In this document: positions 49,265 through 64,000 of the stretch, one piece after another | Layout: every line of letters begins with the position of its first letter | Position numbering within the stretch: position 1 is the first letter of the stretch | Source: Pseudonocardiales bacterium | Lineage (GTDB): Bacteria; Actinomycetota; Actinomycetes; Mycobacteriales; Pseudonocardiaceae | NCBI GenBank assembly: GCA_023252195.1 | Contig: JAHEXI010000006.1 | Location: 62,001 to 126,000, forward strand | Reading direction: 5' to 3' | Length of the DNA stretch: 64,000 nt | Notes under the pieces: model-generated | Database searches by the model: none | Seen by the model: only the letters and a program-made list of their open reading frames with translations | What the model was told of the DNA's origin: nothing | Position numbers and translations under genes: made by a program

Positions 49265-50304
49265 GCCTCGCCCAGTGGTCGATCGCCGTGCTGTGGATCG
49301 GACTGACGCTCTACGCGCTGCTGGCCGGAGCAGACTTCGGCGCCGGCTTCTGGGATCTGTTCGCCGGGGGAAGCCAGCGAGGTCGTCCGCAGCGGGACCT
49401 GATCGAGCATTCCATCGGGCCGGTGTGGGAGGCCAACCACGTCTGGCTGATCTTCGTCATCGTGCTGCTGTGGACGGCTTTCCCGACTGTGTTCGCGTCC
49501 GTGATGTCCACCTTGTACATTCCCTTGACGCTGGTGGCACTCGGCATCATCGTGCGGGGCGCGGCGTTCGCCTTTCGCAAGGCCAGCGACCAACTTGGGC
49601 AGCAACGCCTGTTCGGCGCCGCCTTCGCGCTGTCCTCGGTGCTCACCCCGTTTTTCCTCGGCACCGTGGCCGGCGGCATCGCGTCGGGCCGCGTTCCGCT
49701 CGGGTTGGCCGCCGGTGACCTGTTCACCAGTTGGTGCAACCCCACCTCGGTGCTGGGCGGCACGATCGCGGTGGGTATTGCCGCCTATCTCGCGGCGACC
49801 TACCTGTGCGCGGACGCCATGCGCGAAGGCCACAGTGAGCTTGCCGAGGCATTCCGACGCCGCGCGCTGATCACCGGCATCGTGCTCGGTGTCGTGGCAT
49901 TGAGCGGGATCGCGGTGCTGCACGCCGACGCGCCCCGGCTGTTCGACGGTCTGACACACCGCGCGTTGCCGCTGGTCATTGTCTCGGCCATCGCGGGCGT
50001 GGCCTCGCTGCTGCTGGTGCTACGCCGCCGCTACCTGCTGGTACGGGTCACTGCGGCGCTGGCGGTCACCGCGGTGTTGTGGGGATGGGCGCTGGCCCAG
50101 TACCCATATCTACTCCCACCCCCCGCGACGGCGAATGTCACCATCACTGCCAGCGCAGCGACTCCGGCCGTACTCTTGGCCACGCTCATCGCACTGGCCG
50201 TCGGCGCAGCGCTGCTCATCCCCTCGCTGCTGTGGCTGTTCGTGCTCTTTCAGCGAGGCCAACGCGCTGACGAGCAGAAGCAACTGAGTGTCAGAGGCCG
50301 GTGA
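49261..50304 (+). CDS. cydB: Cytochrome bd-type quinol oxidase subunit II
   Basis: A 347-residue membrane partner of CydA. It opens with WIGLTLYALLAGADFGAGFWDL, then IGPVWEANHVWLIFVIVLLWTAFP, SWCNPTSVLGGTIAVGIAAYL and a C-terminal helix with LLIPSLLWLFVLFQRG, all typical of CydB. The GTG start overlaps the cydA stop. No cydDC follows; the next genes are on the other strand and overlap its 3' end by 14 bp. Confidence 0.94.
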   Translation: MSLAQWSIAVLWIGLTLYALLAGADFGAGFWDLFAGGSQRGRPQRDLIEHSIGPVWEANHVWLIFVIVLLWTAFPTVFASVMSTLYIPLTLVALGIIVRGAAFAFRKASDQLGQQRLFGAAFALSSVLTPFFLGTVAGGIASGRVPLGLAAGDLFTSWCNPTSVLGGTIAVGIAAYLAATYLCADAMREGHSELAEAFRRRALITGIVLGVVALSGIAVLHADAPRLFDGLTHRALPLVIVSAIAGVASLLLVLRRRYLLVRVTAALAVTAVLWGWALAQYPYLLPPPATANVTITASAATPAVLLATLIALAVGAALLIPSLLWLFVLFQRGQRADEQKQLSVRGR

Positions 50305-50965
50305 TGCGGATCCCGGCGTGCGTATGGTGTCGGCGGTTGACCGCGATCAGGTTGGCGACCAGCGCCTCCACTTGCCCGGCGTTGCGTAACCGCCCGCCGT
50401 AGATACCACGCATGCCAGGTACCGCGTCGGCTAAGGCACTTACCAGGTCCGTGGCTTCCCGGTCGTCGCCCAGCACCAGCACGTCCGTGTCCAGCCGGCT
50501 CACCTCGGGGTCATCGAGAAGCACCGCGGAGACATGGTGGAACGCGGCGATCACCCGGGACTGCGGCAGCAGCGTCTGGGCCTGCTCGGCGGCGCTGCCA
50601 GCAGGCACGTCGAGCGGGTACGGACCCCGACTGTCGAAGCCGAGCGGGTTCGCACAGTCGATCACGATCTTGCCAGCCAACGCCGGACGGAGCGAGGTCA
50701 GCAGCGCGGCGTGGCCGTCGAAGGGCACCGCCACCACGACCAGGTCTGCCTCGGCCGCGCAGCCGGCGTTGCCCGCACCGCGCACCCGCAGGGAACCGGC
50801 CCGCTCCCCCACTAAGGCCGCCGTCTCCTCGGCCCGATGAAGTTCCCGGGAGCCAATCACCACCCGCAGCCCACACAGTGCCCATCGGTAGGCCAGCCCC
50901 CGACCCTGCGGACCAGTGCCGCCGAGCACGCCGATCGTCAGCTGGGACAGGTCCGCCTGGATCAC
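50291..50965 (-). CDS. NADPH-dependent F420 reductase (Fno-like)
   Basis: A 224-residue coenzyme F420:NADP oxidoreductase. Dinucleotide motif IGVLGGTGPQGRGLAYRWA at the N-terminus, VVIGSRELHRAEETA (NADPH 2'-phosphate-binding Ser-Arg), VVVAVPFDGH, IDCANPLGFDSRGPYP, VIAAFHHVSAVLLDDP and GIYGGRLRNAGQVEALVANLIAVN. It equilibrates F420 and NADP pools. The GTG start overlaps the stop of the upstream hypothetical gene by GTGA, so the two are coupled. Confidence 0.92.
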   Translation of the reverse strand: MIQADLSQLTIGVLGGTGPQGRGLAYRWALCGLRVVIGSRELHRAEETAALVGERAGSLRVRGAGNAGCAAEADLVVVAVPFDGHAALLTSLRPALAGKIVIDCANPLGFDSRGPYPLDVPAGSAAEQAQTLLPQSRVIAAFHHVSAVLLDDPEVSRLDTDVLVLGDDREATDLVSALADAVPGMRGIYGGRLRNAGQVEALVANLIAVNRRHHTHAGIRITGL

Positions 50966-51402: not shown

Positions 51403-52407
51403 TCAGGCCTTCGCGACCGGCACCCCTGGCCGGACCGCGAGCGGCATCAGTTCGTGCTCATCGAAGTTCACCGCTCGTTGCCGCAGCGGCACCGTTTGAT
51501 TAGCCGCCTCGACCATGCGGCCGTTACCCAGGTACATCGCAACGTGGTGGATGGTATCCGGGTTCGACGTGTCATAACCCCAGAACAGCAGGTCTCCGGG
51601 TTGTGCCTGGCGCACCGGCAGCTGGGTGCCGGCCCAGTACTGCTGTGCCGCCACTCGGGGCAGCGTGACCCCGGCAGACTGGTAGGCCCGCAGCATCAGC
51701 CCTGAGCAGTCGTAGGAATTAGGGCCGGTGGCGCCCCAGACGTAGGGCTTGCCGACTTCGCCCAGCGCGTACTGAATTGCCCGTCCGGCAATCTCGGATG
51801 GCGCCGGCAGCGGTGTGGAACAGGAGGCTTTGACGAACTCCGTGACGTCCCCGCCGACGGCGCCGATCACATTGACGGCCAGCGGTTCCCATTGGTGGTA
51901 GCGCGCCGGGAAGGCCGATCTCTCGATATCCTGCGCCGAATCCCCGGGACGCTGGGTTTCCCAGCCGGGAACCATCAGCAGCTTGTCGTAGAACTTGTTG
52001 ATCTCGTAGACCGGATCGGTGACCTGGGCGACGCTGCCCCAGCCTTGGGAGGGACGCATCTGGAAGATGCCCAGCGAATCCCGGTCGCCGTAGTGCAGGT
52101 TATGCAACCGGGACTCGGTCATCCCAGCTTGGATGGCGATCTGCCAGGCCCGTGGCGGCAGCCGACGCTGCTTGCCGATCGCGATGATCTGCTCGACGAT
52201 GGCGCGCTGCTCGGTATCGAGGTCGCTGACCCGGACGGCCACTCGCGGCGCTTCCCGCGGGTCGGTTGTCGCGAGAACCGAGCCGCACGGCGCTCCGAAC
52301 ATGAAATCGTCGGAACCGACACCGCCGAGCAGCGTGGAGATCGCGGCCAGCGCGATGAGACCGCCGAGCACGCCGATCACCAGGAGCCCGACCAGCCAGC
52401 GGCGCAT
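51403..52407 (-). CDS. Membrane-anchored lytic transglycosylase/NlpC-P60 wall hydrolase
   Basis: A 334-residue two-domain wall enzyme. One N-terminal helix (LVGLLVIGVLGGLIALAAIS) anchors it. About residues 60-190 resemble the lysozyme-like transglycosylase fold (IAIQAGMTESRLHNL with the Glu, SLGIFQMRPSQGWG). About 205-334 form the NlpC/P60 domain (TGPNSYDCSGLMLRAYQ with Cys, TIHHVAMYLGNG with His). In gram-positive conjugation systems such proteins (VirB1/TcpG/Orf14 type) open the wall for the channel. Downstream-most gene of the secretion-like locus; 3-bp gap to the TcpC-like gene. Confidence 0.92.
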   Translation of the reverse strand: MRRWLVGLLVIGVLGGLIALAAISTLLGGVGSDDFMFGAPCGSVLATTDPREAPRVAVRVSDLDTEQRAIVEQIIAIGKQRRLPPRAWQIAIQAGMTESRLHNLHYGDRDSLGIFQMRPSQGWGSVAQVTDPVYEINKFYDKLLMVPGWETQRPGDSAQDIERSAFPARYHQWEPLAVNVIGAVGGDVTEFVKASCSTPLPAPSEIAGRAIQYALGEVGKPYVWGATGPNSYDCSGLMLRAYQSAGVTLPRVAAQQYWAGTQLPVRQAQPGDLLFWGYDTSNPDTIHHVAMYLGNGRMVEAANQTVPLRQRAVNFDEHELMPLAVRPGVPVAKA

Positions 52408-52410
52408 GCC

Positions 52411-53004
52411 TCAACCCGCCCGCTCGTAACTGGCAACCCGCCAGCCAGCGGGCGTGGACACCAGCAGCAGCCGCACCACTACCGCGGTGGTGGCCACGTC
52501 GACCTCAGCCGAGCTCGCCCCCGCGCTGACGGTCCGCGGCGCGTCGATGATCTGCGCCGCGGGGACGTTCGCCGGGTCAATCGACTGAAGTTGGGGAAAC
52601 AGGTCGTCAGTGGTGTAGGGCCGCAGCTGCTCAACCCAACGCGCAGCGGTGATGCCCTTTGGGACGGTAAGAAACCCAGTGACCCAGGAGCGCGCGACGG
52701 TGAGTGCGGCGGCTGGCGCCGGGGCGCTCGGGGCCAAAGCGGGAGCCTGCCGGGCAATGCCAGCGTCGGCTGGCGCCGAGCGTGACCCCGTACCGAACGG
52801 GCTCGCTGCGGCCTTACGCTCAGCGCTGATCGACGGCGCCGCGAAAGTCGCACCACTGCGGTTGTCAGGCAACACCCGTCCGAGTCCGAGACCGATCGCG
52901 ACGAGCGCCAACACGGTACCGGCGAGGTGCTTGGGAGAACGCACCGGCCAGCCCCAGAACCTGCGGTAGACGGCTGCGCGGCCGCGGTGGGTCCGGATCG
53001 GCAC
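52411..53004 (-). CDS. TcpC/VirB8-like membrane protein
   Basis: A 197-residue protein with a basic cytoplasmic start, one helix (HLAGTVLALVAIGLGLGRVL), an Ala/Pro-rich linker (about 60-100) and an NTF2-like C-terminal domain: ALTVARSWVTGFLTVPKGI, WVEQLRPYTTDDLFPQLQS, VDVATTAVVVRLLLVST, GWRVASYERAG. This is the layout of TcpC/conjugal transfer proteins of the VirB8 superfamily, which sit in the gram-positive channel core. Assignment rests on architecture and position. Confidence 0.75.
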   Translation of the reverse strand: MPIRTHRGRAAVYRRFWGWPVRSPKHLAGTVLALVAIGLGLGRVLPDNRSGATFAAPSISAERKAAASPFGTGSRSAPADAGIARQAPALAPSAPAPAAALTVARSWVTGFLTVPKGITAARWVEQLRPYTTDDLFPQLQSIDPANVPAAQIIDAPRTVSAGASSAEVDVATTAVVVRLLLVSTPAGWRVASYERAG

Positions 53005-53018
53005 GGCGCGTCCCCCGG

Positions 53019-54968
53019 TCAGTCCACGAACCGGGCGTTGGCACCGTCAGTGGTTTCCAGGCGGGCTTCAGAGCCGGCTTCCGAGCCGACTTCCAGGCCG
53101 GCCGACGGCCGGTACACCACCCACACCGGGCGCCCGGCCACCTCGTCCAGCCCCGCCTCCTGCGGTGCGCCCCGGGAACTGCTGACCGCCGAGGGCACAT
53201 ACACCGGATCCTCGCCGACGCGGGTGCGGCCGCGTGCAGGCGCGCTGAATCCGGTCGGCACCGCAGCCAACCCATCGGGCCGTAACACGCTGCTGCTCGC
53301 CCCGGTCAACACCGCCTCGTCGTACCCCAGGCCAGGACCACCAAGGGCGGTAGGACGGCCCGCGCCGAGCGCCGGCGTGGCCGCCGAGCCAGCACCTCTG
53401 CGATCCATTCGCCCGGCCGTGACGATCACCGGTGCGTCAGCCTCTGGACGCACCCGGCTGCCAGCCACCGAGCCTGCCGCAGCTGCCGCCGGATCACTCT
53501 CAGCGCCGCGGGCCTCCTCCCAGAACCGCTCCGAGGGACTGGCGTCGACATCTGCCCCGCGCCGGCGCAGCCGGGCCAGTACACCCGGCGGGGGTGCGGG
53601 TAGCGCACCACCTACCGCACCGACCGCGAGCTCGGTCATCTGCCACATCCGCCGAACCGGCCGAGCCACCAGCAACAACACCACGGTGATCATCCCGGCG
53701 AGCAGCATCTGCGCGAGCACCGACATGTTGCGGGTGGGGTCGAAAACCCACACCATGACCAACGTGTGCAGTGCGGCCAGCGCTGACAGCATCACGATGT
53801 TGAGCAGCGCGGCGCCGACCGCGCGGCCGACGCCGCGCAAAATGTCGTGGTACAAGATTGCGATCAGACCGATGATCGGGCCGAGCAGGATCACCACCCG
53901 CAGCAGCACCTGAGCCAGCAGCAATGCCGCCTGCGCGAGCAGTTGGAACAGTCCGAACATCACCGCCTGCAGGGCAGCCAGGAATCCGACGCCGATCCGG
54001 TTGCCGTCCACCCCCTGGAAGTAGCCGTAGGCGCTGCCGGTCCGGTCGGCGATCGCCTTGTACTCCTGCTTCTTGCGATCCGCAACACCGGATTTCGGAT
54101 CGTCCGCGCCGTTGGCGATCTCTTGCTTGGTGTAGGCCTGCGCCCGAAGTAGGTCACGGCCGAGCTGGGCAGCCTGCGGACCGTCCGGAGAACCGAATTC
54201 CCCGCGTAGCCAGTTGCGGTAGATGATCTGGTCGTGCAGCAGGGTCGGTAGCGCATCGCGCTGCTCGATACCGACCTCGTGCAGGAACCCGCTGCGCACG
54301 TCATTGCTGCCCTCGACGAGAACGCCATCGAGCACCTGGGTGTACAGCAGTGGGGTCAGGTAGGTCGCGGCCGCCAACCAGATGCCAGCCAGCGCCCACG
54401 CCGCGCGTTTGCTGACCGCGGCGAGGTCGCCGCGCCAGATCGATCGGAATAGCACGATTGCCAGCAGCACCGCGACCAGCCCGAACCACGGTGCGTAGAC
54501 GCTGTCGTACAGCGCGACCGTGCCCGAGACGATCAGATCGTTCAACGGAGCCAGCAGGCCCCCATCGGACAGCGCGTAGTGCAGCCCGTTAGTAGCGCCG
54601 ACGATCGCCTTGCCGATGTCGAACAGCAGGTTGCCGGTCCAGGTGTCGATCACCGCATTCGGGTTGCGCAGGCCCGAAGGACCACAGCCGAGGTCATAGG
54701 TGTGCCACACCAGTCCGGCGTAGCCGACCTCGTGGTACGCGCTGTTCGGCGCGCCGGCCTGCAGCGGTGTCGGATCGATCGCACCGACCATGCCGGACCC
54801 GGGCCGCTCCGGGTTGGGTGCCTGTTTGCAGTCGTCGGCTCCGGGGACCTGCGCCAGCGCTGAGGACCCCCAGGCACTCGACGGACTGAGCAGCGCGATG
54901 GCCGCCATCAGCCCGAGCAGCGCCAACAACGCCGCGATCCGCCGGCCGCGCAGCACCTGGAGGATCAT
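53019..54968 (-). CDS. TrbL/VirB6-like polytopic membrane protein
   Basis: A 649-residue protein. A signal-like N-terminal helix (ALLALLGLMAAIALLSP) is followed by an external region with Cys pairs (DDCKQAPNP; YDLGCGPSG), then helices at about 155-180 and 190-215. After a soluble loop, four to five helices lie at about 330-450 (LLAQAALLLAQVLLRVVILLG, IIGLIAILYHDIL, ALLNIVMLSALAALHTLVMV, MLLAGMITVVLLLVA). The 180-residue cytoplasmic tail is Ala/Gly-rich and low in complexity, ending with LEVGSEAGSEARLE repeats. This is typical of the inner-membrane channel subunit. Its ATG overlaps the VirB4-like gene's stop (ATGA). Confidence 0.85.
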   Translation of the reverse strand: MILQVLRGRRIAALLALLGLMAAIALLSPSSAWGSSALAQVPGADDCKQAPNPERPGSGMVGAIDPTPLQAGAPNSAYHEVGYAGLVWHTYDLGCGPSGLRNPNAVIDTWTGNLLFDIGKAIVGATNGLHYALSDGGLLAPLNDLIVSGTVALYDSVYAPWFGLVAVLLAIVLFRSIWRGDLAAVSKRAAWALAGIWLAAATYLTPLLYTQVLDGVLVEGSNDVRSGFLHEVGIEQRDALPTLLHDQIIYRNWLRGEFGSPDGPQAAQLGRDLLRAQAYTKQEIANGADDPKSGVADRKKQEYKAIADRTGSAYGYFQGVDGNRIGVGFLAALQAVMFGLFQLLAQAALLLAQVLLRVVILLGPIIGLIAILYHDILRGVGRAVGAALLNIVMLSALAALHTLVMVWVFDPTRNMSVLAQMLLAGMITVVLLLVARPVRRMWQMTELAVGAVGGALPAPPPGVLARLRRRGADVDASPSERFWEEARGAESDPAAAAAGSVAGSRVRPEADAPVIVTAGRMDRRGAGSAATPALGAGRPTALGGPGLGYDEAVLTGASSSVLRPDGLAAVPTGFSAPARGRTRVGEDPVYVPSAVSSSRGAPQEAGLDEVAGRPVWVVYRPSAGLEVGSEAGSEARLETTDGANARFVD

Positions 54969-57715
54969 GCTCGGGTCCTGGCTGCGGCCGCCGGACCGAT
55001 CCCACTGGGTCCTGGGCTGCGGCCCTCTTCAGGCGCAAGATCAGCTGTGCTGGGCAGCTCCACAGCCGCCGGACCGCCGCGCAGCGCATCCGGAGTGGTG
55101 TCCAGCGCGGTGCACAGATGCTCCAAATGCGCGCCTGAAAGGTCCACCCGTACCCGCTCGACGCCGCCAGCGCCATCACCGAAGATGAACTGCCGGGGTG
55201 CCCGGTCTCGTTCCGTGGCCATCCGGTCACCCCCTGGGCGACGCCCCAGCGAGGCCACCACCTGCTCATATCCGACCCCGATGGGAACCTTCAGCAGGCG
55301 CAGCGCGTCGGCCTGTGCGGGCCCGTCGTCGAGCCTGCCGACGAAGACCGAGTCCAGCAGCGATACGAAACCTTGGATTTTCAGGAAGTCCGCCGGGACC
55401 TGCGACGACAGCAGCACCCGCACGTTCCACTTGCGGGAGTCCCGGGCGAAGCGGTTCATCAACACCCGACCGGTGGGGACCTCAGACAGGAAGAACGCCT
55501 CATCGATCCATACGCCTTTGCGCTCGTCACGGGGGCGCTCGTAGATCGACCGTTGGGTCAGCCAAGCGGCCAGGTTGAGCAGCTCCACGCCGAGCGACTC
55601 GGCGTCGGTCCAGTGCTCCCGACCGATGGCGTCCTTGGGCAAAGTCAGGCCGGACATCGTGAGCACGGTCAGCCGGTCATCGCGTACCTCGGTGTAGGGG
55701 TCGGCGCCCTTGTCCGGAATGAGCAACGACATGCGTTCCCGCATCTCGTCGAGGAAGTCGGCGACCACGATGGCGTGCTCATGGTGCTCGGAGGGATCAC
55801 GACGCAGCATCTCGAAGACCTGCCCGGGATGCGCGTCAGGACGCCCACCCACCGCCCGGACCGCACGGAGCAGCACGATGCGGGTCTTCGCCATCCGGGC
55901 GACCTCGAACGGGAGCACTCCGGTAAGGACGTCAAGTACCAGCCGGCGCCGGGTGGCTGCGGTGAGCGCCTTCTCCCGCCGCCAGGCTCGCTCCGGATCC
56001 TCCTCGTCGAGGAAATGCGAAAGCTCGGGCTCACCGACCACCCGGTAAGGATTGAGGATGCCGGGCTGGGCGTTGAGCAGGTTGATCGGCCGCGCGTAGG
56101 GCCGCAGCTCGGGCAGCTCACACAGCTTGGCCAGCGGACCGGAGGGGTCCAACAGGGTCCAGTACGCGCCGGACCGCAGCGTTTTGTACACGATGCCGCC
56201 GCCCAGAAAGGACTTGCCGCCACCGAGCCCGGCCACCAACGCCGTTAGCCCGGAGGAGTCCCGGATCTCCTGGGCCATCCACGGATCCCAGGCGACCGGG
56301 CGCCGGGTGGCGGTGCACGTCTCGCCGAGCAGGATGCCGCGCCGGTCCCCCACCTCCGCGGTGGCGGTGGGCACCGCGGAAGCCGCCCAGATCACCGAGC
56401 CGCGGCGCAGGTAGGCACCCGAGGACAGCGGCTCGCCCGGGATGAACTCGCGGGCCAGTGCGTACTGCGACTCCGGATGCTCGATGGCGATCTTGGGCTT
56501 GTACAGATCCAGTAGCTGCTGCGCCAACCGGAGTGCGTCCCGCTCGGTAGGTCCCGAGACCGCTACCCGCCACCAGGACCGGACCCGGGTGCCCAGCGCG
56601 GTGAAGCCCGAGGTCATCTCGTCGTCGATCTCCAGCACCCTGGTGGCTTGGCGGACCAGGCTCTGCGGCGGCTCGAGGTCGTGCTCGTCGGTGTAGTGCC
56701 GCACCTGCGAACGCACCTTGTTCATCTGCCGCTGCAGTTCGCCGGCCACCTCCTCTGGCCGGCGCACATAGAGACGCGCCGACCATTCAACCCCGGCCGG
56801 CAGGCGGTCCGAGCGCTGTACCCACGGATCGTCGATCTCCGGGATCCGCAACCCGTGCATCTGCCCCACGGTGAGGACTACGACGTGCCGTGCGACGCCG
56901 GCGTTGGAGCCGGTGCGGCCGCGAACGGTGAGGGTGGGAGCGTAGGGCTCGGTGTGGAAGTCCGCGGCGTCGGTGAAACTGGCCAGATCCTCGGGTTCCC
57001 AGGTGGCGCCGGGGGTCGCGGGCAGGTTGCGTGGCGCGGGCAGACCAAGCGAGCACGATCGGTGCATCAGCCAGGACATCTCCCCGGCGGTCACCGGCCG
57101 ACCCTCCAGCCCGGCCACACCGATCACGCCGTCGAGGTGCTCCACTTCGGCGTCGATCGCGACCAGCTCGGCATCGACGGCGGTGGGAAAAACTCGCCGC
57201 AGCATCGGCGCGGCCCGCTCCACGACCCGGTCGACCATGGAACGGGTCTGCACCTGCACGCCGAGATAGACTTCCTTCTCGGCCATCGAATGCCCGAGCA
57301 GTTGCTGCTGCTCACCGATCATGTAGTCGTCGAAGGACAGCGCTCCGGGAGTGTCGGGCAGCCTGCCTACCGCGTTGCGCACGTGGGCTTCGGCCCACAT
57401 CCGGATCGGGTATGGGCGGGCGGTGACCCGCAGGTGCATCCACCGGCCCTGCAACTCCGCGTACTGGCCTGCGATGGCATGAATCAGGTCTTGACGTTGC
57501 GAGTCCGAGCGGAACGACCAGCGCTGCGACGCGAGCCGGTACCAGGCGTAGACCTCCTGCCCGTTGCGGACCAGGTGGCCGTCAATGGAGCGCAGCGCGA
57601 TGGACGGGGTGTACGTGGGGGCGACAAGCTCGCCCGGGAGCTTGTGGCCGCGCCGGTTGGAGCCCTGGTGCTGGTCGTCTTCACTGCTGCTGGGAGGACG
57701 TCGGAGCCCGAACAC
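54965..57715 (-). CDS. VirB4/TraC-like secretion ATPase
   Basis: A 916-residue cytoplasmic ATPase that would energise substrate or pilus transport. The N-terminal half carries a VirB4-type region (SIALRSIDGHLVRNGQEVYAWYRL, ARLYVRRPEEVAGELQRQMNKV). The C-terminal half is a RecA-like motor: Walker A VAGLGGGKSFLGGG near residue 500, TLLDPSGPLAKLCELPE, Walker B KGVWIDEAFFL near 735, and VRVLLSSQVPADF (arginine-finger/motif C region). GTG 57715 is favoured by GGAAGGAG 7 nt upstream and overlaps the PrgI-like gene by 35 bp. Confidence 0.88.
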   Translation of the reverse strand: MFGLRRPPSSSEDDQHQGSNRRGHKLPGELVAPTYTPSIALRSIDGHLVRNGQEVYAWYRLASQRWSFRSDSQRQDLIHAIAGQYAELQGRWMHLRVTARPYPIRMWAEAHVRNAVGRLPDTPGALSFDDYMIGEQQQLLGHSMAEKEVYLGVQVQTRSMVDRVVERAAPMLRRVFPTAVDAELVAIDAEVEHLDGVIGVAGLEGRPVTAGEMSWLMHRSCSLGLPAPRNLPATPGATWEPEDLASFTDAADFHTEPYAPTLTVRGRTGSNAGVARHVVVLTVGQMHGLRIPEIDDPWVQRSDRLPAGVEWSARLYVRRPEEVAGELQRQMNKVRSQVRHYTDEHDLEPPQSLVRQATRVLEIDDEMTSGFTALGTRVRSWWRVAVSGPTERDALRLAQQLLDLYKPKIAIEHPESQYALAREFIPGEPLSSGAYLRRGSVIWAASAVPTATAEVGDRRGILLGETCTATRRPVAWDPWMAQEIRDSSGLTALVAGLGGGKSFLGGGIVYKTLRSGAYWTLLDPSGPLAKLCELPELRPYARPINLLNAQPGILNPYRVVGEPELSHFLDEEDPERAWRREKALTAATRRRLVLDVLTGVLPFEVARMAKTRIVLLRAVRAVGGRPDAHPGQVFEMLRRDPSEHHEHAIVVADFLDEMRERMSLLIPDKGADPYTEVRDDRLTVLTMSGLTLPKDAIGREHWTDAESLGVELLNLAAWLTQRSIYERPRDERKGVWIDEAFFLSEVPTGRVLMNRFARDSRKWNVRVLLSSQVPADFLKIQGFVSLLDSVFVGRLDDGPAQADALRLLKVPIGVGYEQVVASLGRRPGGDRMATERDRAPRQFIFGDGAGGVERVRVDLSGAHLEHLCTALDTTPDALRGGPAAVELPSTADLAPEEGRSPGPSGIGPAAAARTRA

Positions 57716-58127
57716 CTGTGCGCTCCTTCCTGCGACCCCAGCGACGGCTCGGCCGTTGGCCGGGCCGAGGGCGGTCGCGTTCGACCCGGACCCGCGATGC
57801 GGTGGCGGCGCCACCGCGCCCCGCGGTCACCTTCCGGGGGGCCGTAAGCTCCCGCACCCACATCGCCGCAACGGCGGTCAGCGGGCGCTCGTGGGTAATC
57901 CGAGAGCCGATCACCCGGGTGAGCAGGATGGTGATGAGCAGGGCCCAGCCGGTGGAGAAGAAGCCAAAGCCGATGCCCAGCTGACGCTCAAGGCCTAGAA
58001 CAACCAGAAACGTCACCATCCCGACACCCCAGGCCACGTACCGTGCCCGCCACGGGAACGTCGCCTTGGGGGGGCCGAGCCAGACCGCGTCTACTCGGTA
58101 AACATCGTCATCAGTGCGGATCCGCAA
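57681..58127 (-). CDS. PrgI/SCO6880-N-terminal-like small membrane protein
   Basis: A 148-residue protein: RVDAVWLGPPKATFPWRARYV, two helices (VAWGVGMVTFLVVLGLE; FFSTGWALLITILLTRVIG), then SRITHERPLTAVAAMWVRELTAP and a basic, disordered tail. Two close helices followed by a short cytoplasmic ATPase-facing segment is the pattern of PrgI/VirB3/TcpE proteins, which partner VirB4. It overlaps the VirB4-like gene by 35 bp, an arrangement that suggests translational coupling. Confidence 0.8.
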   Translation of the reverse strand: MRIRTDDDVYRVDAVWLGPPKATFPWRARYVAWGVGMVTFLVVLGLERQLGIGFGFFSTGWALLITILLTRVIGSRITHERPLTAVAAMWVRELTAPRKVTAGRGGAATASRVRVERDRPRPGQRPSRRWGRRKERTGVRAPTSSQQQ

Positions 58128-58145
58128 CGTCGCGTCACCCCCCGC

Positions 58146-58406
58146 TCAGCCGGTGAACAAGCCGGCGATCCACGTCCCGAGGTTCACCCCTGCGCCGGAC
58201 ACTGCTAGCCCGACGACGCCCAACGCGATGATCACACCTCCGACCCGTCGCATGACCCCGGCGTTGTCTCCCTTACCGCCGCCCAACCACAGCAGCAACA
58301 CCGCCACCGCCAGCAGGAGCAGCGGCACGACGTTGTCCAACATCCAGGTACGCAGGTTGTGCGTGCCCAGTTCGGTTGCCTGGGCGACTACGGTCAACGC
58401 CGTCAT
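58146..58406 (-). CDS. Small two-helix protein, VirB2/TcpF-like position
   Basis: An 86-residue protein with helices NVVPLLLLAVAVLLLWLGGG and VGGVIIALGVVGLAVSGAGV separated by a short basic loop (DNAGVMRR). First gene of the secretion-like operon. Size and layout match VirB2-type pilin precursors or other small T4SS membrane subunits, but no cleavage site is evident. The gap to the next gene is 18 bp. Confidence 0.75.
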   Translation of the reverse strand: MTALTVVAQATELGTHNLRTWMLDNVVPLLLLAVAVLLLWLGGGKGDNAGVMRRVGGVIIALGVVGLAVSGAGVNLGTWIAGLFTG

Positions 58407-58815
58407 CGCAACCCCCTGGGGGTCTGATCATGGTTGCGCGCCGAGCGGCCGCCCGGCGGGTTGTGAGTAGACCATGCCAGGGTTGCCGCACAGTACCCGG
58501 CTCGCCACGCCCAGTGGTCACTCGGACAGTTGAACGGACGTCATCGCAACCCAGGTAGCCGCCAGAGCAGCACTCTGGGCCGTCCTCCTTACTCCGTTTA
58601 CACACCCTTGCGGAGTGCGCGCGCCGCCGTCCGTGGCAGTCGCAGCGTGCGCCGATTACGTACTGTAAACCGCCCAGTCGGCGCAGCGTCACTGCCGGTG
58701 GCAGTGCGGCTGTTGCCTTGGGTCGGCGTGGGCGACCGAGTAGTCTCGGGACGACGGCTGGGCCAGCTTTCGAGAGTTGGTTCTGGCGCCGTGTATTCGG
58801 GAGGGACTGGTTGAC
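58407..58815. other. Divergent intergenic region between the secretion-like operon and the HicB-like gene
   Basis: About 410 bp with no convincing gene on either strand. GTTTAC (58597-58602) and GTAAAC (58667-58672) are complementary hexamers 64 nt apart, possibly half of an operator pair. The promoter of the secretion-like operon must lie here. Confidence 0.45.
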
Positions 58816-59289
58816 GTGAGCGATAGCTACACCGCGGTATACGAACGAGACGGCGAAGCTTGGGTGGTGGAAATCGCCGAGGAGCCTGGAGTCCGTTGCC
58901 TGTGCCCAAGCGTGGCCGAGGCGCGGGAGAGCATCCGAGGAGCTCTCGGCCGCTGGCTCAAGACAGATCCGGCACAGCTTCACGTCGTCGATGATTTCCG
59001 TTTTCCGGCCCAAATTAGAACCGTCCAGCAGTCGGTGAAAGCGACCCGGACAGACGATGATCGCAACCAGATGATGGCCAGCATGACCGATTCCAAATCG
59101 GCTATGAGCTGGGCCGAGGATCTCGGACTGTCCATGCGGGATCCCGTGACCGTCGAGGCGCTCAAGAGCCTAGGCGGCCGAGAGGTCTCGATCGACACAT
59201 TCTGTCATACGATTACGATGGCGGAAGAACTGTCGAGGCTCACTGCGGCCGAGGATCGCGTTTCGGACCGCGTCGGCCAAGAGGACTAA
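58816..59289 (+). CDS. HicB-like antitoxin-family protein, orphan
   Basis: A 157-residue protein whose N-terminus SYTAVYERDGEAWVVEIAEE and SVAEARESIRGALGRWL has the partial RNase-H-like fold of HicB antitoxins. The C-terminal part (SAMSWAEDLGLSMRDP onward) is helical and would be the place of a DNA-binding domain, but I recognise none. No HicA-type toxin (a 60-85 residue dsRBD protein) is found on either side. GTG 58816 has GGAGGGA upstream. It may be a regulator or a leftover of a toxin-antitoxin pair. Confidence 0.75.
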   Translation: MSDSYTAVYERDGEAWVVEIAEEPGVRCLCPSVAEARESIRGALGRWLKTDPAQLHVVDDFRFPAQIRTVQQSVKATRTDDDRNQMMASMTDSKSAMSWAEDLGLSMRDPVTVEALKSLGGREVSIDTFCHTITMAEELSRLTAAEDRVSDRVGQED

Positions 59290-59520
59290 GAACTCCGCTA
59301 TACGGTCGCGCACGTTGTCCGACAGATACCTGAGCCTGCGAGCTGACGGCCTGCGTTGTGTTGTGTCGTGCCGGCCTTCTCAGCCTCTGCGGACTTCGCG
59401 ATCAACGAGCACGCCGGGCGGGCCTGTCCCAATCTGAAGCACTGACGCTGCAAGCAGCTTGCTCGATCCACGGTGAGCTCAGCCTCGCGCTGGACGAGAT
59501 TCACGAGATGATGGGGTCTG

Positions 59521-60022
59521 CATCCCAATCTGCCGTTGCTGGAGTTCGATGACGACTCGCCAGCGCTCATTGACCCTTTGCCGCTCACTACGACGGGTGA
59601 GGTGCCCGAACATGCGGTGATCTGTTTCTTCCAGGAGGTCATCGCCGAGGCATGCGGGGAAGGTCGGGCCGATCGCATCGGGATCTTCAAATGGGAGCAT
59701 GGCCACCACCCCCTCTACCGGCTGCACCGTTCCGGGATTGGCGCTCGGTCACGTCGTTGTTCCCAGCGCGGCAATACGCGACGAAGGCACTTCCTGTCAC
59801 TACCTTCCAGCGGGTCGGGAGATCAGCGCCGACGTCGATGCGGTCACCGCCGGGTGGCGGTGCTCCAGGAACGCGGCGGCCCACATGTCATGGGCAAGAC
59901 CTGGACCACCGATGCGCCATACCGCGAGACGCGATCCAAGATCCGGGCCCGCCGCGGCGAGGGATGTCTCACGGTGGAGATGGAGACAGCGGCGTTCCTT
60001 GCGGTCGCCCAACATCGAGCGG
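59521..60022 (+). pseudogene. Broken nucleoside phosphorylase (uridine phosphorylase family)
   Basis: Family segments appear in the right order but in two frames. Frame from 59536: LEFDDDSPALIDP, VPEHAVICFFQEVI. A second frame: LALGHVVVPSAAIRDEGTSC and HYLPAGREISADVDAVTA. Then the first frame again: VMGKTWTTDAPYRETRSK, GEGCLTVEMETAAFLAVAQ. About 45 residues are missing between the first two blocks, a frameshift follows the second, and the C-terminal end is lost after AVAQHRAVR. The motif VEMETAAF is the substrate-binding signature of these phosphorylases. The gene cannot make an intact enzyme. Confidence 0.82.
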
Positions 60023-60373
60023 TGCGCTTACGGTGCGGCACTGTCTACTGTACTAGCTATCCTGCTATTCCCGACGCTAGCTCGCGAGCGTCGTCCAGCC
60101 GTATTAGTGTCCGTTGCGCTCGCCACCGCAGCGGGACCAGTTGCGTGGAACGCGATCCTGCGAGCCACCAGGGCCGACCAGTTCTTCACCGACGCGCCGA
60201 TTCCGGTGTTCCCGATCAGCTGGCAAGACACCGGATCACTGGTGTTCGCGGTAGCCACCGTCGCCTTGGTACTCGGCCTTGGTGCGCTTCGAGCGGATAC
60301 CGGGCACCGCGTCGGCATGCTCTGTGCACTGGGCGGTATCAGCGCACTGCTTGTGGATATCTACCTGTACTGA
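60020..60373 (+). pseudogene. Membrane protein lacking its start, fused to the phosphorylase relic
   Basis: The frame reads AYGAALSTVLAILLFPTLAR, AVLVSVALATAAGPVAWNAI, FPISWQDTGSLVFAVATVAL and GMLCALGGISALLVDIYLY, four likely helices ending in a normal stop. There is no in-frame start codon at the expected place; the frame continues into the phosphorylase relic. Homologues that I recall start a few residues before AYGA. So the 3' part looks intact but the start was removed by the deletion that ended the phosphorylase gene. It could still be expressed from an upstream frame. Confidence 0.6.
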
Positions 60374-60448
60374 CCAGTCGCATCGTACGGCTCGATGCGC
60401 GTTCAGCCAGTGGGTTGATCGGAAATGTGATCAACTATCAACACCGGG

Positions 60449-61027
60449 CTAAGCCGGGTCGACGATCTCATCGGAGGACAGTGTCGTCTGCGGCACCGAA
60501 GCGAGCACTCCATCGCGGGTCAACTCCCGCACCGCCGGGACCGGGTTGGGGTCGGAGAACAGCGTGGGGTCGCTGTAGTCGGCCATCCGCCCCGTCGGGT
60601 CGACGACCCACCACGAGGCCTCCAGCGCGATCCCGTTGGGATCGTTGAAGTAGATGGAGCGCACAAAGCCGTGGTCGATGACGTCGGTTACCCCGCAACT
60701 ATGCGACTTCAGCCGGCTCTGCAGCTCCTCCAAGGCGTGCTCATCGGGAAGGTTGAACGACAGATGATCGAACTGCATCTTGCGCTGGTCCGGCACCCCG
60801 GCCGGTACCTGAAACCGTTCCACGACGACGTCTCGGTACTCGAAAAACGCCACGGTCTGCTCATCACCGAACTCGAAGAAGTAGTGCCGGAAGGATTCGT
60901 TGCCCAGGTGCGCGACGAGCCGCGCCCCGAGCACGCCGTGCCAGAACCGCGTGGTGGCGTCCATGTCGTTCGTGATCAGGGCGAGGTGGTTGATGCCCCG
61001 CCAGAAGGGCCTAGCGATCTCGGTCAT
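60449..61027 (-). CDS. VOC family protein (glyoxalase/dioxygenase-like)
   Basis: A 192-residue vicinal-oxygen-chelate protein with two beta-alpha-beta3 modules: GINHLALITNDMDATTRFWHGVLGARLVAHLG (metal His), FFEFGDEQTVAFFEY, QFDHLSFNLPDEHALEELQSRL (second metal His) and SIYFNDPNGIALEASWW (Glu ligand). A 35-residue tail follows. The substrate cannot be predicted: dioxygenase, isomerase and resistance proteins share the fold. It appears intact although its neighbours are decayed. Confidence 0.9.
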   Translation of the reverse strand: MTEIARPFWRGINHLALITNDMDATTRFWHGVLGARLVAHLGNESFRHYFFEFGDEQTVAFFEYRDVVVERFQVPAGVPDQRKMQFDHLSFNLPDEHALEELQSRLKSHSCGVTDVIDHGFVRSIYFNDPNGIALEASWWVVDPTGRMADYSDPTLFSDPNPVPAVRELTRDGVLASVPQTTLSSDEIVDPA

Positions 61028-61429
61028 AGGCCAAGTCTAGAAAGCACACCACACCTATGTCGAGATCGACGCCTGTGGATCTACGCCGAGGAGGCTGACC
61101 GGAAAATAGGTACCGCTTGGCCTCATGGTGTTGGTGTGGCGAATTTTCACCGCGGAACGCGCGGCCACACAGGGCCATCAGATGCTGTTGCCTAATCGCC
61201 CTTCTCGCGTTCTCAAGATCGCCAATAGTGAGCGGTCACCGTGCAGGATCGCACGGCCATCGCTCGGCTTCGGCGATCATGGCAGGTCGTTGAGCCGTCG
61301 GCCGGATCCATGAGCGGATCCTCCCAGAACACGAGGTCCGCAACCGGCCCCAACTATGCGGGCGTCTCGCGTTCGCCTGGCGGACCGAAGGCGAGCCGGG
61401 TCGATGTACTCCGGCGGCACCGACGACGA
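61028..61429. other. Degenerate intergenic stretch in the accessory zone
   Basis: No intact gene. A minus-strand frame includes LTIGDLENARRAIRQQH, which looks like a short scrap of an actinobacterial hypothetical protein. Nothing here can be annotated with confidence. Confidence 0.3.
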
Positions 61430-61633
61430 AAACAGTGTCCGAGACAGCCTCCGGGGAGCCATTAACGCGTCCCGGATCGCCGGAACGTCGTCATGCTTAT
61501 CTTCGTCCTCCAGCAGGACGGGCTCACCAAGCAGATCGCTGAGCGTGACTCGGAGCTCCCGCGCCACGTCCGCGAGCACATCAAGCCGGCGAACTCCGAT
61601 CTTCCTGACCGCCTGTTCGGCCGAGGCACGGCT
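61430..61633 (-). pseudogene. Fragment of an XRE-family helix-turn-helix regulator
   Basis: A minus-strand frame contains RRLDVLADVARELRVTLSDL, LGEPVLLEDEDKHDDVPAIR and DALMAPRRLSRTLF. This matches the last HTH helix and the linker of actinobacterial XRE regulators (LGEPVLLE..DVPAIRDALMAPRRLSR). The first HTH helices and the C-terminal domain of over 200 residues are missing. The frame continues for long distances on both sides as non-family sequence. Confidence 0.75.
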
Positions 61634-61640
61634 GCTAGTG

Positions 61641-61700
61641 GGTCCAGATAGATGAGCAGGGTGGTGTCGACGATGTGAACGGTGACTTCCCGGTGGCGTG
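61641..61700 (-). pseudogene. Possible transposase C-terminal scrap
   Basis: A minus-strand frame reads REVTVHIVDTTLLIYLDP, resembling the C-terminal strands of IS481/IS3-type transposases (TVTIHI-DTTL-I-L). Only about 20 residues remain. Confidence 0.3.
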
Positions 61701-61877
61701 CATACGACCGAGAGCGACTTCTGTCCGGCGGCCATGATCACGCAGGTATTGCCGTCTCGGCGTGGGCGGTGCCGCCTTGCGGTGGGGTCTTCGCACTTCC
61801 GCTGCTGCTTGTCCGGGCGCTGCTCCGGGACCGTTTCCGGCAACTGAGCTGACCTGCGTCGTGTTGACCTCGCGGTT

Positions 61878-62246
61878 CTATGCCGTTCTGCGGCTGGCAG
61901 CTCGCTTTCTGCGTACCTCGTCGATGTCCAGTGCGGTGGCCTGATCCACGAGGTCCTCCAGGTCTCCCAGCGGAAGGGTGCCCGATCGGGCATAGATCAC
62001 GAAACCTTCTTTCATGATCACTAGGGTGGGAAGGGACATGACGCGGAACATGGCGGCAAGCTGGCTATGCGCTTCAGCGTCGACCTTGCCGAACACCGCA
62101 TCGGGGTGGCGCTGCGATGCTTGTCCGAAAACAGCTTCGAACATGCGGCACAGTCGACACCGCGGTCCCCAGAAGTCGACCAGCGCCAATTTGGCGCCGC
62201 CCACGACGTCGGAGAAGGTCTCCTTTGTCAGCTCAATCGTCGCCAT
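61878..62246 (-). CDS. Thioredoxin-like protein with CRLC active site
   Basis: A 122-residue thioredoxin fold: ALVDFWGPRCRLCRMFEAVF with the active-site pair Cys30-Arg-Leu-Cys33 in place of the usual CGPC, FGKVDAEAHSQLAAMF, and the cis-Pro segment VMSLPTLVIMKEGF. The C-terminal 20 residues are basic. The Trp-Gly-Pro before the first Cys is preserved from WAPWCGPC-like sequence. A changed CXXC dipeptide shifts redox potential, so it may be an oxidant or a specialised reductase. No reductase gene is adjacent. It is 110 bp from the integrative element's att-like site. Confidence 0.9.
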   Translation of the reverse strand: MATIELTKETFSDVVGGAKLALVDFWGPRCRLCRMFEAVFGQASQRHPDAVFGKVDAEAHSQLAAMFRVMSLPTLVIMKEGFVIYARSGTLPLGDLEDLVDQATALDIDEVRRKRAASRRTA

Positions 62247-62357
62247 CTTCCCCTTCGTTGAACCCTTCGGTGATATCGAGAAGGCATCTGCTGTTTCCGC
62301 GGTTTTGTGAAATTCGTCTTGTCCGCGTCCGCCCGCTGGCGCAGGTGGTGAAGTGCG

Positions 62358-62388
62358 GGGCGGACGAGCTGGCCTGTAAGCCGGATAC
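62358..62388 (-). other. RNase P RNA 3'-end-like sequence, candidate attachment site
   Basis: The minus strand carries ATCCGGCTTACAGGCCAGCT followed by CGTCCGCCC. This closely follows the 3' end of actinobacterial rnpB (ACAGAACCCGGC-TACAG--CGACTCGTCTGCC) preceded by a GGGACA block as in rnpB. The rest of rnpB is absent here. It lies 16 bp beyond the end of int, as expected of an att site formed when an element integrates in the 3' end of an RNA gene. Confidence 0.6.
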
Positions 62389-62403
62389 AGCCGTTGTCCC
62401 TGA

Positions 62404-63654
62404 TTAGAGGCCCGTATCGTGGTCTTGGGCCGTCACGGGGCCGTCAACGTCCGCTTCCCCGTTACCGAATAGACCGTCGATCGCGCGTTGAGTTCGGGCC
62501 GTGCTGGTCGGCATGAGGTGGGTGTAGGTCCGGAGGGTGAAGCCGGGGTCGTGGTGGCCGAGGTACTCCGACAGGGCCTTGATGCTCTCCCCTGCATCGA
62601 GCAGCACCGAGGCGTAGTGGTGCCGTAGCGCGTGCGTCCCGTCCTGCCGGGTCGGGTGAGTGATACCGGCCGCCCTCCTGGCCGGTGCCCAGACCCGGTC
62701 ATTGAAGCGGCTGCGCAGGAGCGCTCCACCCACGGGAGTGGTCAGGAGCAAGCGCACCGTGACGGGATCCCCACTCGGGATGCGCCATGGCAGCGTCACC
62801 GGCACAGGCGGGAAGCGCTCCATATGCTCATCGAGCAGCCGTAACAAACTGCGCGGAAGCGGGACGTCCCGAGTCTTGTTGCGCTTGGGCAGGGCGTACA
62901 CCTGCTGACCGTCGATGATCCGCACTTGCCGAACGACATGCACGACCAGGCCCTCGCGGTCGAGATCCGCTGGAGCAAGCCCGAAAAACTCCCCTTGCCG
63001 CAGCCCACAACCAGCGCCGAGCGGAATGGCGATCTTGTAGCGGTCGGCCAACGCCAATCGCATCGCGTTGACCCGAGCACGCGACCAAGGCACAACTTTC
63101 TGTGAGACGGGCCGAGGTCGGACCACTGTCCGGGCATGGCACGGGTTCTCACGGATCAACTTGTCATCAACGGCCGCGCTGAGGATTGAGGACAGGTGCG
63201 CGAAGCAGCCCGATTGGTAGCTCGCGGCCACGTTGCGTTCCTGCATGCTCCGGATCCACGCCCGGACGTCGGTGGGCCTTATCGATCCGAGCTCGCGTCG
63301 TTCGAAAAAAGGCAGGATCTGCGCGTTGAGCCGCCACGTCACGCTGTTCCGCGTGGAGGCATCAAACGTTTGACTATCGAGCCAAGTTCGCACGAATCCG
63401 CCGAAAGTAAGCCTGCCCGCCTTCGGGTCGATGTAGGCCCCCTGGCGCTTATCGCCCTCGACTCTGACGAGGAAGTCCTCTGCCGCCTTCTTCTGGCGGT
63501 CGGGGAAGCTAACGCTGCGCTCGTGGCCCTCGGGGTCGAGGTAGCGCACCCGATAACGCTGGCCCGTGCCGTGCCGCGCCGCCTTGACCCGGGCTCGCTT
63601 CTTCGTCACCGGGTCCGCGACGACCTTACACCAGCGATCCTCGATGTGGCCCAT
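62404..63654 (-). CDS. int: Tyrosine-type site-specific integrase
   Basis: A 416-residue phage/AICE-type integrase. N-terminal DNA-binding arm (RYRVRYLDPEGHERSVSFPDR, an AP2-like arm), SAM-like core-binding domain (LTFGGFVRTWLDSQTF, AQILPFFERRELGSIRPTDVRAW), and catalytic domain with Arg in GAGCGLRQGEFFGL, His-x-x-Arg in THALRHHYAS, His in YLGHHDPGFTLRTYTH and the nucleophile Tyr in that same segment. ATG 63654 lies 5 bp after the xis stop; an upstream start would overlap xis. Unidirectional with xis, so int and xis are co-expressed. Confidence 0.94.
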   Translation of the reverse strand: MGHIEDRWCKVVADPVTKKRARVKAARHGTGQRYRVRYLDPEGHERSVSFPDRQKKAAEDFLVRVEGDKRQGAYIDPKAGRLTFGGFVRTWLDSQTFDASTRNSVTWRLNAQILPFFERRELGSIRPTDVRAWIRSMQERNVAASYQSGCFAHLSSILSAAVDDKLIRENPCHARTVVRPRPVSQKVVPWSRARVNAMRLALADRYKIAIPLGAGCGLRQGEFFGLAPADLDREGLVVHVVRQVRIIDGQQVYALPKRNKTRDVPLPRSLLRLLDEHMERFPPVPVTLPWRIPSGDPVTVRLLLTTPVGGALLRSRFNDRVWAPARRAAGITHPTRQDGTHALRHHYASVLLDAGESIKALSEYLGHHDPGFTLRTYTHLMPTSTARTQRAIDGLFGNGEADVDGPVTAQDHDTGL

Positions 63655-63658
63655 GAGG

Positions 63659-63856
63659 TCAGGCCACCTCGGAGCTGAGGCCAGCAAACCAGTTCCGAAC
63701 CTCAGCCGGGTCGTACCGAAGATGCCTGCCGACCTTGCGAACCGGCGGACCCTCGCCCCGCCACTTCCACTGATAGAGCGTCTTCACCGGCACGCGGAGA
63801 TACAGCGCCGCATCATCGACCGTCCACAACAGATCGATCCTCGCTACATCACCCAT
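63659..63856 (-). CDS. xis: Excisionase-like helix-turn-helix protein
   Basis: A 65-residue MerR-like winged-helix protein: LLWTVDDAALYLRVPVKTLYQWKWRGEGPPVRKVGRHLRYDPAEVRNWFAGL, the classical excisionase domain that assists the integrase in excision. ATG 63856 is preceded by GAGGAGG 7 nt upstream and overlaps the stop of the upstream gene (TGATG), so it is coupled to it. The order rep, xis, int is that of pSAM2-like integrative elements. Confidence 0.92.
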   Translation of the reverse strand: MGDVARIDLLWTVDDAALYLRVPVKTLYQWKWRGEGPPVRKVGRHLRYDPAEVRNWFAGLSSEVA

Positions 63857-64000
63857 CACGCTGCCTCCTCGATTGCCGAACGGTTCTCGGGTGGTGATCC
63901 GCTCGCGGCGAGTTGGGCGGCGGTGTATTCGGCGTGCCATCGCTGTCGTTCGGCCACGGCCTGCAGTAGCAAGACGGGACGTGGTGGGACGTCGGGGTCG
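63856..64000 (-). CDS. C-terminal end of an element gene, probably replication initiator (partial)
   Basis: An open frame enters from beyond the window and ends at TGA 63856-63858. Its last 47 residues include LLLQAVAERQRWHAEYTAAQ and ENRSAIEEAA. The gene is on the same strand as xis and overlaps it by one base. In actinomycete integrative elements the gene before xis is usually rep, and the hydrophilic helical tail is compatible, but there is too little sequence to be sure. Confidence 0.6.
   Translation of the reverse strand, partial: DPDVPPRPVLLLQAVAERQRWHAEYTAAQLAASGSPPENRSAIEEAA

Follow-up and report, generated by a model that had tools for sequence, protein, structure and literature searches.

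A core chromosomal type IV secretion-type module of Pseudonocardiaceae, without a linked coupling protein and with collinear relatives on linear plasmids

A gene cluster for a type IV secretion system (T4SS)-type channel, with no coupling protein or relaxase beside it, raises the question of whether it belongs to a mobile element or to its host. Such a cluster is located on the minus strand of the 64,000-nucleotide stretch analysed here (the window; contig JAHEXI010000006.1 of a Pseudonocardiales bacterium, whose genome is referred to as G000). The initial annotation, made from the sequence alone, recognized six genes and proposed that they encode a domesticated chromosomal machine. The module as defined here consists of seven genes (P6 to P8, from position 58406 down to 50962 in window numbering), for VirB1-, VirB3-, VirB4-, VirB6- and VirB8-like proteins, a small protein with two transmembrane (TM) helices, and P8. 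It is a core locus with no linked VirD4 coupling protein, and the nearest mobile relatives that we found are linear-plasmid modules with a collinear gene arrangement, located near an FtsK/SpoIIIE-like protein. We are highly confident that the module is a core, syntenic and vertically inherited chromosomal channel of Pseudonocardiaceae.

All 11 genomes of the genus and all 150 of the family sample (46 of 46 genera; the source genome is counted in both samples) have a match to VirB4, the ATPase of the module, and 142 of the 150 contain a single match. Gene order was compared in the best 80 of 311 family VirB4 loci (the named loci), from Lentzea, Saccharothrix, Kutzneria, Amycolatopsis, Saccharopolyspora, Prauserella and other genera of Pseudonocardiaceae; 73 of them have enough flanking sequence for this analysis. 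The seven genes are found in the same order, on one strand, in 71 of the 73. The exceptions are L105, without a match for NlpC (P1), and L170, without matches for TrbL, P2, NlpC and P8, whose contig stops about 8.7 kb past VirB4. The ratio of non-synonymous to synonymous substitution rates (dN/dS) is 0.05–0.09 for VirB4 (nine pairs within the genus) and 0.06–0.35 for the other module genes (against four named loci). VirB4 does not evolve most slowly among the module proteins in every comparison; dN is 0.015 for P1 (against L100) and 0.022 for VirB4 (against L011, from the same genome as L100).

In the class sample of 296 genomes, a VirB4 match was found in 40, none of which is from f2, a family of the same order; the 20 genomes without a match among those listed are all from f2. 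Fourteen of the 20 family stretches that were fetched lie on contigs of 4.2–11.8 Mb, and the contig of the window itself has 282,684 bases. By a test of its features against those of linear-plasmid modules, the window module is not on a linear plasmid. The distribution, the synteny and the purifying selection thus argue that the module is chromosomal and domesticated, as the initial annotation had proposed, and not an integrative conjugative element (ICE).

Two other VirB4 loci were noted in the course of this comparison. One genome (G151, contig C15) contains a second, divergent locus (L077; 71% identical) in addition to an 84% identical copy. The other locus (L160), whose VirB4 is 87% identical to the window type, comes from a record under the title Rhodococcus rhodnii (JOAA01000056); this assembly may be misnamed or contaminated.

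No relative of the VirD4-like protein (P0009) or the MobF relaxase (P0010) of G000 was found in the window with 20 kb on each side (104 kb), a search that did not extend to other relaxase families. The 80 named loci contain no relative of either protein. The initial annotation had reported no adjoining coupling protein or relaxase, and this holds within that search. It had also reasoned that a relaxase and a VirD4 just outside the window, together with a patchy distribution, would make the module an ordinary ICE; the 104 kb are clear and the distribution is universal in the family sample. The genome-wide look that it recommended finds one VirD4-like protein in G000, on another contig (C34, 28783–36890), of 607 amino acids (aa), with a TrwC/MobF relaxase of 1466 aa located 1.9 kb further on. 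The only match to Pfam AAA_10 in G000 is the window VirB4. Among the 150 family genomes, 57 have a match to PF02534 (VirD4) and 49 a relative of P0009. Neither is found in 91 of them, and VirD4 loading is therefore unlikely to be the general role of the module.

A sign of mobility is nevertheless located nearby. A tyrosine integrase gene (62404–63687; Phage_integrase, E = 6.2e-13) lies 4 kb upstream of the module, and the next gene (63856–65538, running past the window) encodes a putative replication-initiator-like protein of 560 aa. A similar pair, with 63% and 57% identity, is located beside the module in G023 (L070) and hints at a common neighbourhood of insertion. This would fit an ordinary ICE or its decaying remnant. 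However, a relative of the window integrase (E ≤ 1e-10) is found in only three of the 80 named loci, and there is no direct repeat of at least 25 bp at 58400–63999, which covers that side of the module only. Given the distribution, the fixed order, the purifying selection and the lack of a linked VirD4 or MobF relative, the module was rejected as an ICE or remnant, a reading that we consider highly improbable.

Mobile relatives of the module were found on plasmids. A search of 72,556 plasmid records with VirB4 gives matches in 92, all below 60% identity, of which 55 are typed as non-mobilizable and 37 as mobilizable. Eleven of the 92 were inspected, in fetched regions of 21–35 kb per record, and all 11 are linear. 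Hidden Markov models (HMMs) of the family proteins match VirB4, PrgI and TrbL in 11 of the 11, P2 and NlpC in 10, P6 in six and P8 in one. The plasmid without P2 and NlpC matches (L216) has insertion sequence genes at that place. The sole P8 match (L213, 18846–19292, on a plasmid of Streptomyces sp. NBC_01304) directly follows the NlpC/P60 gene, which makes this module a candidate mobile form of the complete set of seven genes. VirB4 is 38–42% identical on the plasmids of Streptomyces, Nonomuraea NBC_00507 and Pseudonocardia, and about 34% on those of Gordonia and Rhodococcus.

The gene order PrgI-VirB4-TrbL-P2-NlpC is the same in the plasmid modules (for example NZ_CP050694, NZ_CP029542, NZ_AP018367 and NZ_CP107854) as in the window. 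There are differences in their surroundings, however. An HMM built from the FtsK/SpoIIIE-domain proteins of seven of the 11 plasmids has a match in each of the 11 fetched regions (three of them weak) and none in the 80 chromosomal loci. P8 is lacking from most of these plasmid copies, and the window copy is chromosomal and fixed in the family. No P0009 or P0010 relative is present in the 11 fetched regions; nine of these plasmids are typed as non-mobilizable, and two, from Rhodococcus, are typed with MOBP relaxases. In a quick maximum-likelihood tree of VirB4 (75 rows; the program warned of long branches), all 46 family rows, leaving aside one plasmid copy, fall in a single clade (SH-aLRT 100), inside which several named genera group together. 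Its neighbours are linear-plasmid rows (96), and the VirB4 of another family, f18 (see below), is in a separate clade.

The initial annotation had put the cluster forward as its best candidate for an undescribed system, which is too strong in the full sense: public records of linear plasmids contain this module as well, and cmdABCDEF of Streptomyces is a distant published counterpart. The components belong to known types, and chromosomal T4SSs without a relaxase have been described in Patescibacteria. Among the titles and abstract openings listed from the open-access literature, no paper naming this family-wide locus was found.

All six genes of the initial annotation are present where it placed them; the seventh conserved gene, P8, had been overlooked. 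At the upstream end, P6 (58146–58406) encodes 86 aa with two TM helices predicted by hydropathy, and is matched in 79 of the 80 named loci. A Pfam search gave no match for it, and by size and position only we take it to be a small channel or pilin-like subunit, similar to VirB2/PrgF/TcpD. P5 (57681–58127; TTG start) encodes 148 aa with two TM helices and is also matched in 79 of the 80. Its VirB3/PrgI-like label is based on size, topology and position beside VirB4; no sequence link to the Pfam TcpE-domain set was detected (hhalign probability 2.8%).

The VirB4-like ATPase (54965–57715) matches AAA_10 (E = 1.3e-17) and, under the cut-off of that model, NCBIfam TcpF (E = 9.4e-16). Its Walker A (G529, G533, K534, S535) and Walker B (D771, E772) residues, described as intact in the initial annotation, are the same in all 80 named homologues. 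Its start is uncertain, with homologue alignments beginning at residues 1 to 72. The longest open reading frame (949 aa, from a GTG at 57814) overlaps P5 by 134 nt, and a candidate GTG start at 57715, behind GGAAGGAG, would give about 916 aa and an overlap of 35 nt. The spacing of 3–18 bp, or overlaps, noted earlier therefore applies to the other pairs (18 bp between P6 and PrgI, a 4-nt overlap of VirB4 and TrbL, 14 bp between TrbL and P2, and 3 bp between P2 and NlpC) but not to PrgI and VirB4.

The VirB6/TrbL-like protein (53019–54968; 649 aa) is polytopic, with about seven hydrophobic segments by hydropathy and a long C-terminal tail. It is matched in 79 of the 80 named loci, and its match to NCBIfam CD3337/EF1877 (E = 5.4e-6) is under the cut-off. 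P2 (52411–53004; 197 aa) has one TM helix and one NTF2-like domain with a VirB8 fold, for which the top likeness is pIP501 TraM, and TcpC (3ub1) is at rank 4. P1 (51403–52407; 334 aa), a VirB1/CwlT-like wall hydrolase matched in 73 of the 80 loci, has an N-terminal hydrophobic segment, a muramidase-like domain (residues 63–184; match to muramidase 8b2e, E = 3.3e-10) and an NlpC/P60 domain (residues 219–307; Pfam NLPC_P60, E = 3.5e-24). E98, C234 and H288, presumably the catalytic residues, are conserved in 73, 72 and 72 of 73 homologues, respectively. A VirB1-like lytic enzyme, a VirB4-type ATPase and a VirB8/TcpC-like NTF2-fold subunit, three features of gram-positive (MPF-FATA-like) channels, are thus present; the VirB3 and VirB6 labels are weaker than the others. 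The AAA_10 and NLPC_P60 matches, with the conserved order, put the T4SS-like nature of the cluster, as first annotated, beyond chance.

The seventh gene, P8 (50962–51387, minus strand), encodes 141 aa with no predicted TM helix and belongs to no known family. Among the 73 named loci with enough flanking sequence, 72 have a match for it, and 29 aligned homologues are 55–94% identical; Pfam and NCBIfam searches gave no match, and fold searches none that is confident. The F420 reductase pair of the initial annotation is reduced to one gene, since only 50291–50965 (minus strand) matches such a family (npdG, NADPH-dependent F420 reductase; NCBIfam equivalog TIGR01915, 227 bits, cut-off 149.8) and P8 matches none. 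The npdG gene overlaps P8 by 4 nt (at a candidate GTG start) and is not counted in the module, being matched in 45 of the 80 named loci at differing places. In several genera, a gene for an RNase with an RNB domain (Pfam RNB, E = 2.9e-47 for the only protein scanned) and a small gene are located in between. A promoter and terminator scan was uninformative: it found one sigma-70-like site, on the opposite strand, and six terminator-like sites, with 3.0 expected.

What would such a channel do for its host? The module may have been fixed in the ancestor of the family from a relaxase-free plasmid module, or have a common origin with it, and would now have a host function. P1 would act as muramidase and endopeptidase to open the cell wall, VirB3, VirB6, VirB8 and the two-TM protein would build a membrane conduit, and VirB4 would power its assembly or gating. 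The substrate would be delivered by a motor encoded elsewhere, most likely a double-stranded DNA (dsDNA) translocase of the FtsK family, with P8 as a possible cytosolic adaptor. By analogy with Cmd in Streptomyces, we think there is about an even chance that the channel aids the passage of DNA or of the septal envelope during hyphal growth and sporulation.

CmdABCDEF (SCO4126–4131) is co-transcribed, has a membrane-bound ATPase and is conserved in several Streptomyces (PMC2782261). Deletions in S. coelicolor lead to aberrant branching, poor septation and sporulation, and actinorhodin overproduction, with 6–8% anucleate spores as compared to 0.1%; transfer of pQC542 is unchanged, and three Cmd members are related to transfer genes of the linear plasmid SLP2 (PMC2782261). 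A later transposon screen recovered cmdBCDEF again, with tgdA (PMC6585502). A cmdA null mutant sporulates as wild type (PMC2782261), and as the presumed CmdA is VirD4-like, this provides a precedent for a VirD4-free role.

Several observations weigh against the favoured explanation. The FtsK link is one of plasmid neighbourhood, and seven of the 11 plasmids were seeds of the HMM. The four non-seeds give one strong match (2.7e-91) and three weak ones (1.7e-10, 1.1e-9 and 1.3e-6). One of the weak matches is about 9 kb from VirB4 and one carries the annotation of a T4SS conjugative DNA transfer protein, so that FtsK-like motors are not clearly set apart from VirD4-like ones there. Typing assigns MOBP relaxases to two of the 11 plasmids and classes 37 of the 92 records as mobilizable. 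The order of the plasmid rows in the tree is unsure given the long-branch warning, and we infer, rather than observe, derivation from plasmids over a shared ancestor. P8 has no match in L075–L077. Finally, the family VirB4 HMM does not match the CmdB-like protein (E ≤ 0.1), though both match AAA_10; orthology with cmd is not supported, and the Cmd phenotype carries over by analogy only.

Other explanations start from the same proteins. In a machine for protein export or contact-dependent action, VirB4 would work by itself or together with P8 as receptor, with no VirD4 involved, and the substrates would perhaps be wall enzymes or effectors. This would suit the 91 family genomes without a VirD4 match, and in Patescibacteria most T4SS clusters, probably co-opted, lack relaxases (PMC12102498). 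However, the neighbourhoods read showed no gene for an effector, a chaperone or a toxin/immunity function, although no systematic effector search was made; the named neighbours of the module are panB, the RNB-domain RNase and npdG. The nearest mobile relatives are located near FtsK-like proteins and suggest DNA handling no less than protein secretion, and we regard protein export as unlikely. The wall itself may instead be the target, with the muramidase-NlpC/P60 enzyme doing the work, the T4SS proteins placing or gating it at septa or tips, and nothing being translocated. The conservation of the presumed catalytic residues of P1 (72–73 of 73) and its evolution as slow as that of VirB4 between some genus members are consistent with this, as are the common phenotypes of S. 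coelicolor mutants in tgdA (a lytic transglycosylase gene), cmdBCDEF and SCO5677, which the authors tie to the cell envelope (PMC6585502). On the other hand, the checked VirB4 motif residues are identical in 80 of 80 and its dN/dS is low, indicating that the activity of VirB4 matters too, and the whole channel set is kept in order. A pure wall-remodelling complex is therefore rather improbable.

The channel could also be a host-owned mating pore used in trans, through which elements with only a VirD4 and a MobF relaxase conjugate. All 12 family VirD4 loci inspected have a MobF-type match within the 20 kb read, and none of the 10 whose VirD4 shares 59% or more identity with P0009 contains a module gene in that stretch. 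Moreover, 20 genomes were selected for having a VirD4 with an identity of at least 54% to P0009 (G037, which also qualifies, was not in this set), and 14 of them have the core VirB4 as their sole AAA_10 match; G000 is such a case too. But the other six (G023, G115, G089, G058, G079, G138) have additional AAA_10 matches of 23–33 bits, and G188 and G297, outside the family, contain a 55–60% identical VirD4 with no VirB4 match listed. With P0009 relatives in only 49 of the 150 genomes, the universal retention of the module would be left unexplained, and this role is quite improbable, slightly more so than the wall complex. A broader form, a general DNA port, is about as doubtful as the wall complex: a VirD4-independent channel from linear-plasmid machinery would pass FtsK-family-driven dsDNA between hyphal compartments, and MobF-VirD4 elements would borrow it. 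The translocases would then be the FtsK family of the cell itself, or the TraB type of linear plasmids and actinomycete elements (AICEs), and borrowing by channel-less elements would serve single-strand conjugation. T4SS channels and FtsK/TraB transfer, usually held separate, would form one system. According to a 2025 review, whether TraB/Spd assemblies resemble VirD4/T4SS complexes awaits further study (PMC12857230); a core channel in Pseudonocardiaceae, with its closest mobile relatives found on linear plasmids near FtsK/SpoIIIE-like proteins, makes this question testable in laboratory strains that produce antibiotics.

The favoured explanation, a host channel for DNA or septal-envelope passage, can be compared with several known systems. 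Like the window module, CmdABCDEF is chromosomal and combines a VirB4-type ATPase with membrane proteins; it comprises six genes. We presume that four loci of f20 (L198–L201), which we infer to be Streptomyces, are cmd loci, based on gene sizes, order, an SCO6880-like member and the published description. L198 encodes proteins of 529, 476, 519, 446 and 321 aa, including the SCO6880-like member; L199–L201 are similar, with not every gene called, and the VirD4-like CmdA is called in three of the four, not in L201. The presumed ATPase is short (476 aa in L198) and is next to the 519-aa SCO6880-like protein, whereas the window VirB4 is full length. The SCO6880-family subunit (NCBIfam NF042935) has no match above cut-off in G000, and the sole sub-threshold match is on contig C48. 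There is also no counterpart of CmdA in the window cluster or the 104 kb around it.

A second core cluster is present in f18, probably Streptosporangiaceae as judged from sequence: its VirB4 is 79–83% identical to that of Nonomuraea gerenzanensis. This VirB4 is found in 79 of 80 f18 genomes (the sole miss is a 74%-complete genome), and most of the 10 loci read have TrbL-like, P2-like and NlpC/P60 genes, as in the window module. It is, however, only 25–30% identical to the window VirB4 and forms its own clade. Upstream of the cluster, one f18 locus (L081) has a Pfam TcpC protein and a 1607-aa protein with an N-terminal TcpE domain and, near its end, a weak CbiA/ParA-like match (E = 0.0012, below the cut-off); L088 and L229 are further f18 loci with the cluster. 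A third, distant chromosomal T4SS-like cluster is seen in two f20 genomes (L095, L096), with a VirD4-like match close by in both (G265:C1:4367794, G413:C1:4418604); that of L096 encodes a TcpC-domain protein, an 86-aa two-TM-like protein, VirB4 and TrbL.

The gram-positive conjugation channels of pIP501, pCF10, Tn916, ICEBs1 and pCW3 have a VirB1/B3/B4/B6/B8-type composition. The window module has a set of this type, with VirB3 and VirB6 less firmly assigned, but it is vertically inherited and has no adjoining VirD4 or MobF relative; the composition of these channels is taken in part from the 2025 review (PMC12857230). A virB4 gene of unknown role is mentioned for Micromonospora lupini (PMC4182475). 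By description, the linear plasmids of Mycobacterium avium are similar in having VirB4 and TcpC/VirB8 genes and no relaxase, but theirs is a hybrid type VII/IV locus, and the authors remark on the FtsK domain of EccC (PMC12803027). The T4SSs of Patescibacteria, again as described, are chromosomal, clade-wide and probably co-opted, with relaxases absent from most clusters; they differ in their phylum, the epibiont life style and the reported VirB2-like pilins (PMC12102498). Among these systems, the Pseudonocardiaceae module, the f18 cluster and Streptomyces cmd provide an evolutionary case in which a conjugation pore has, apparently repeatedly, become a fixed part of the host.

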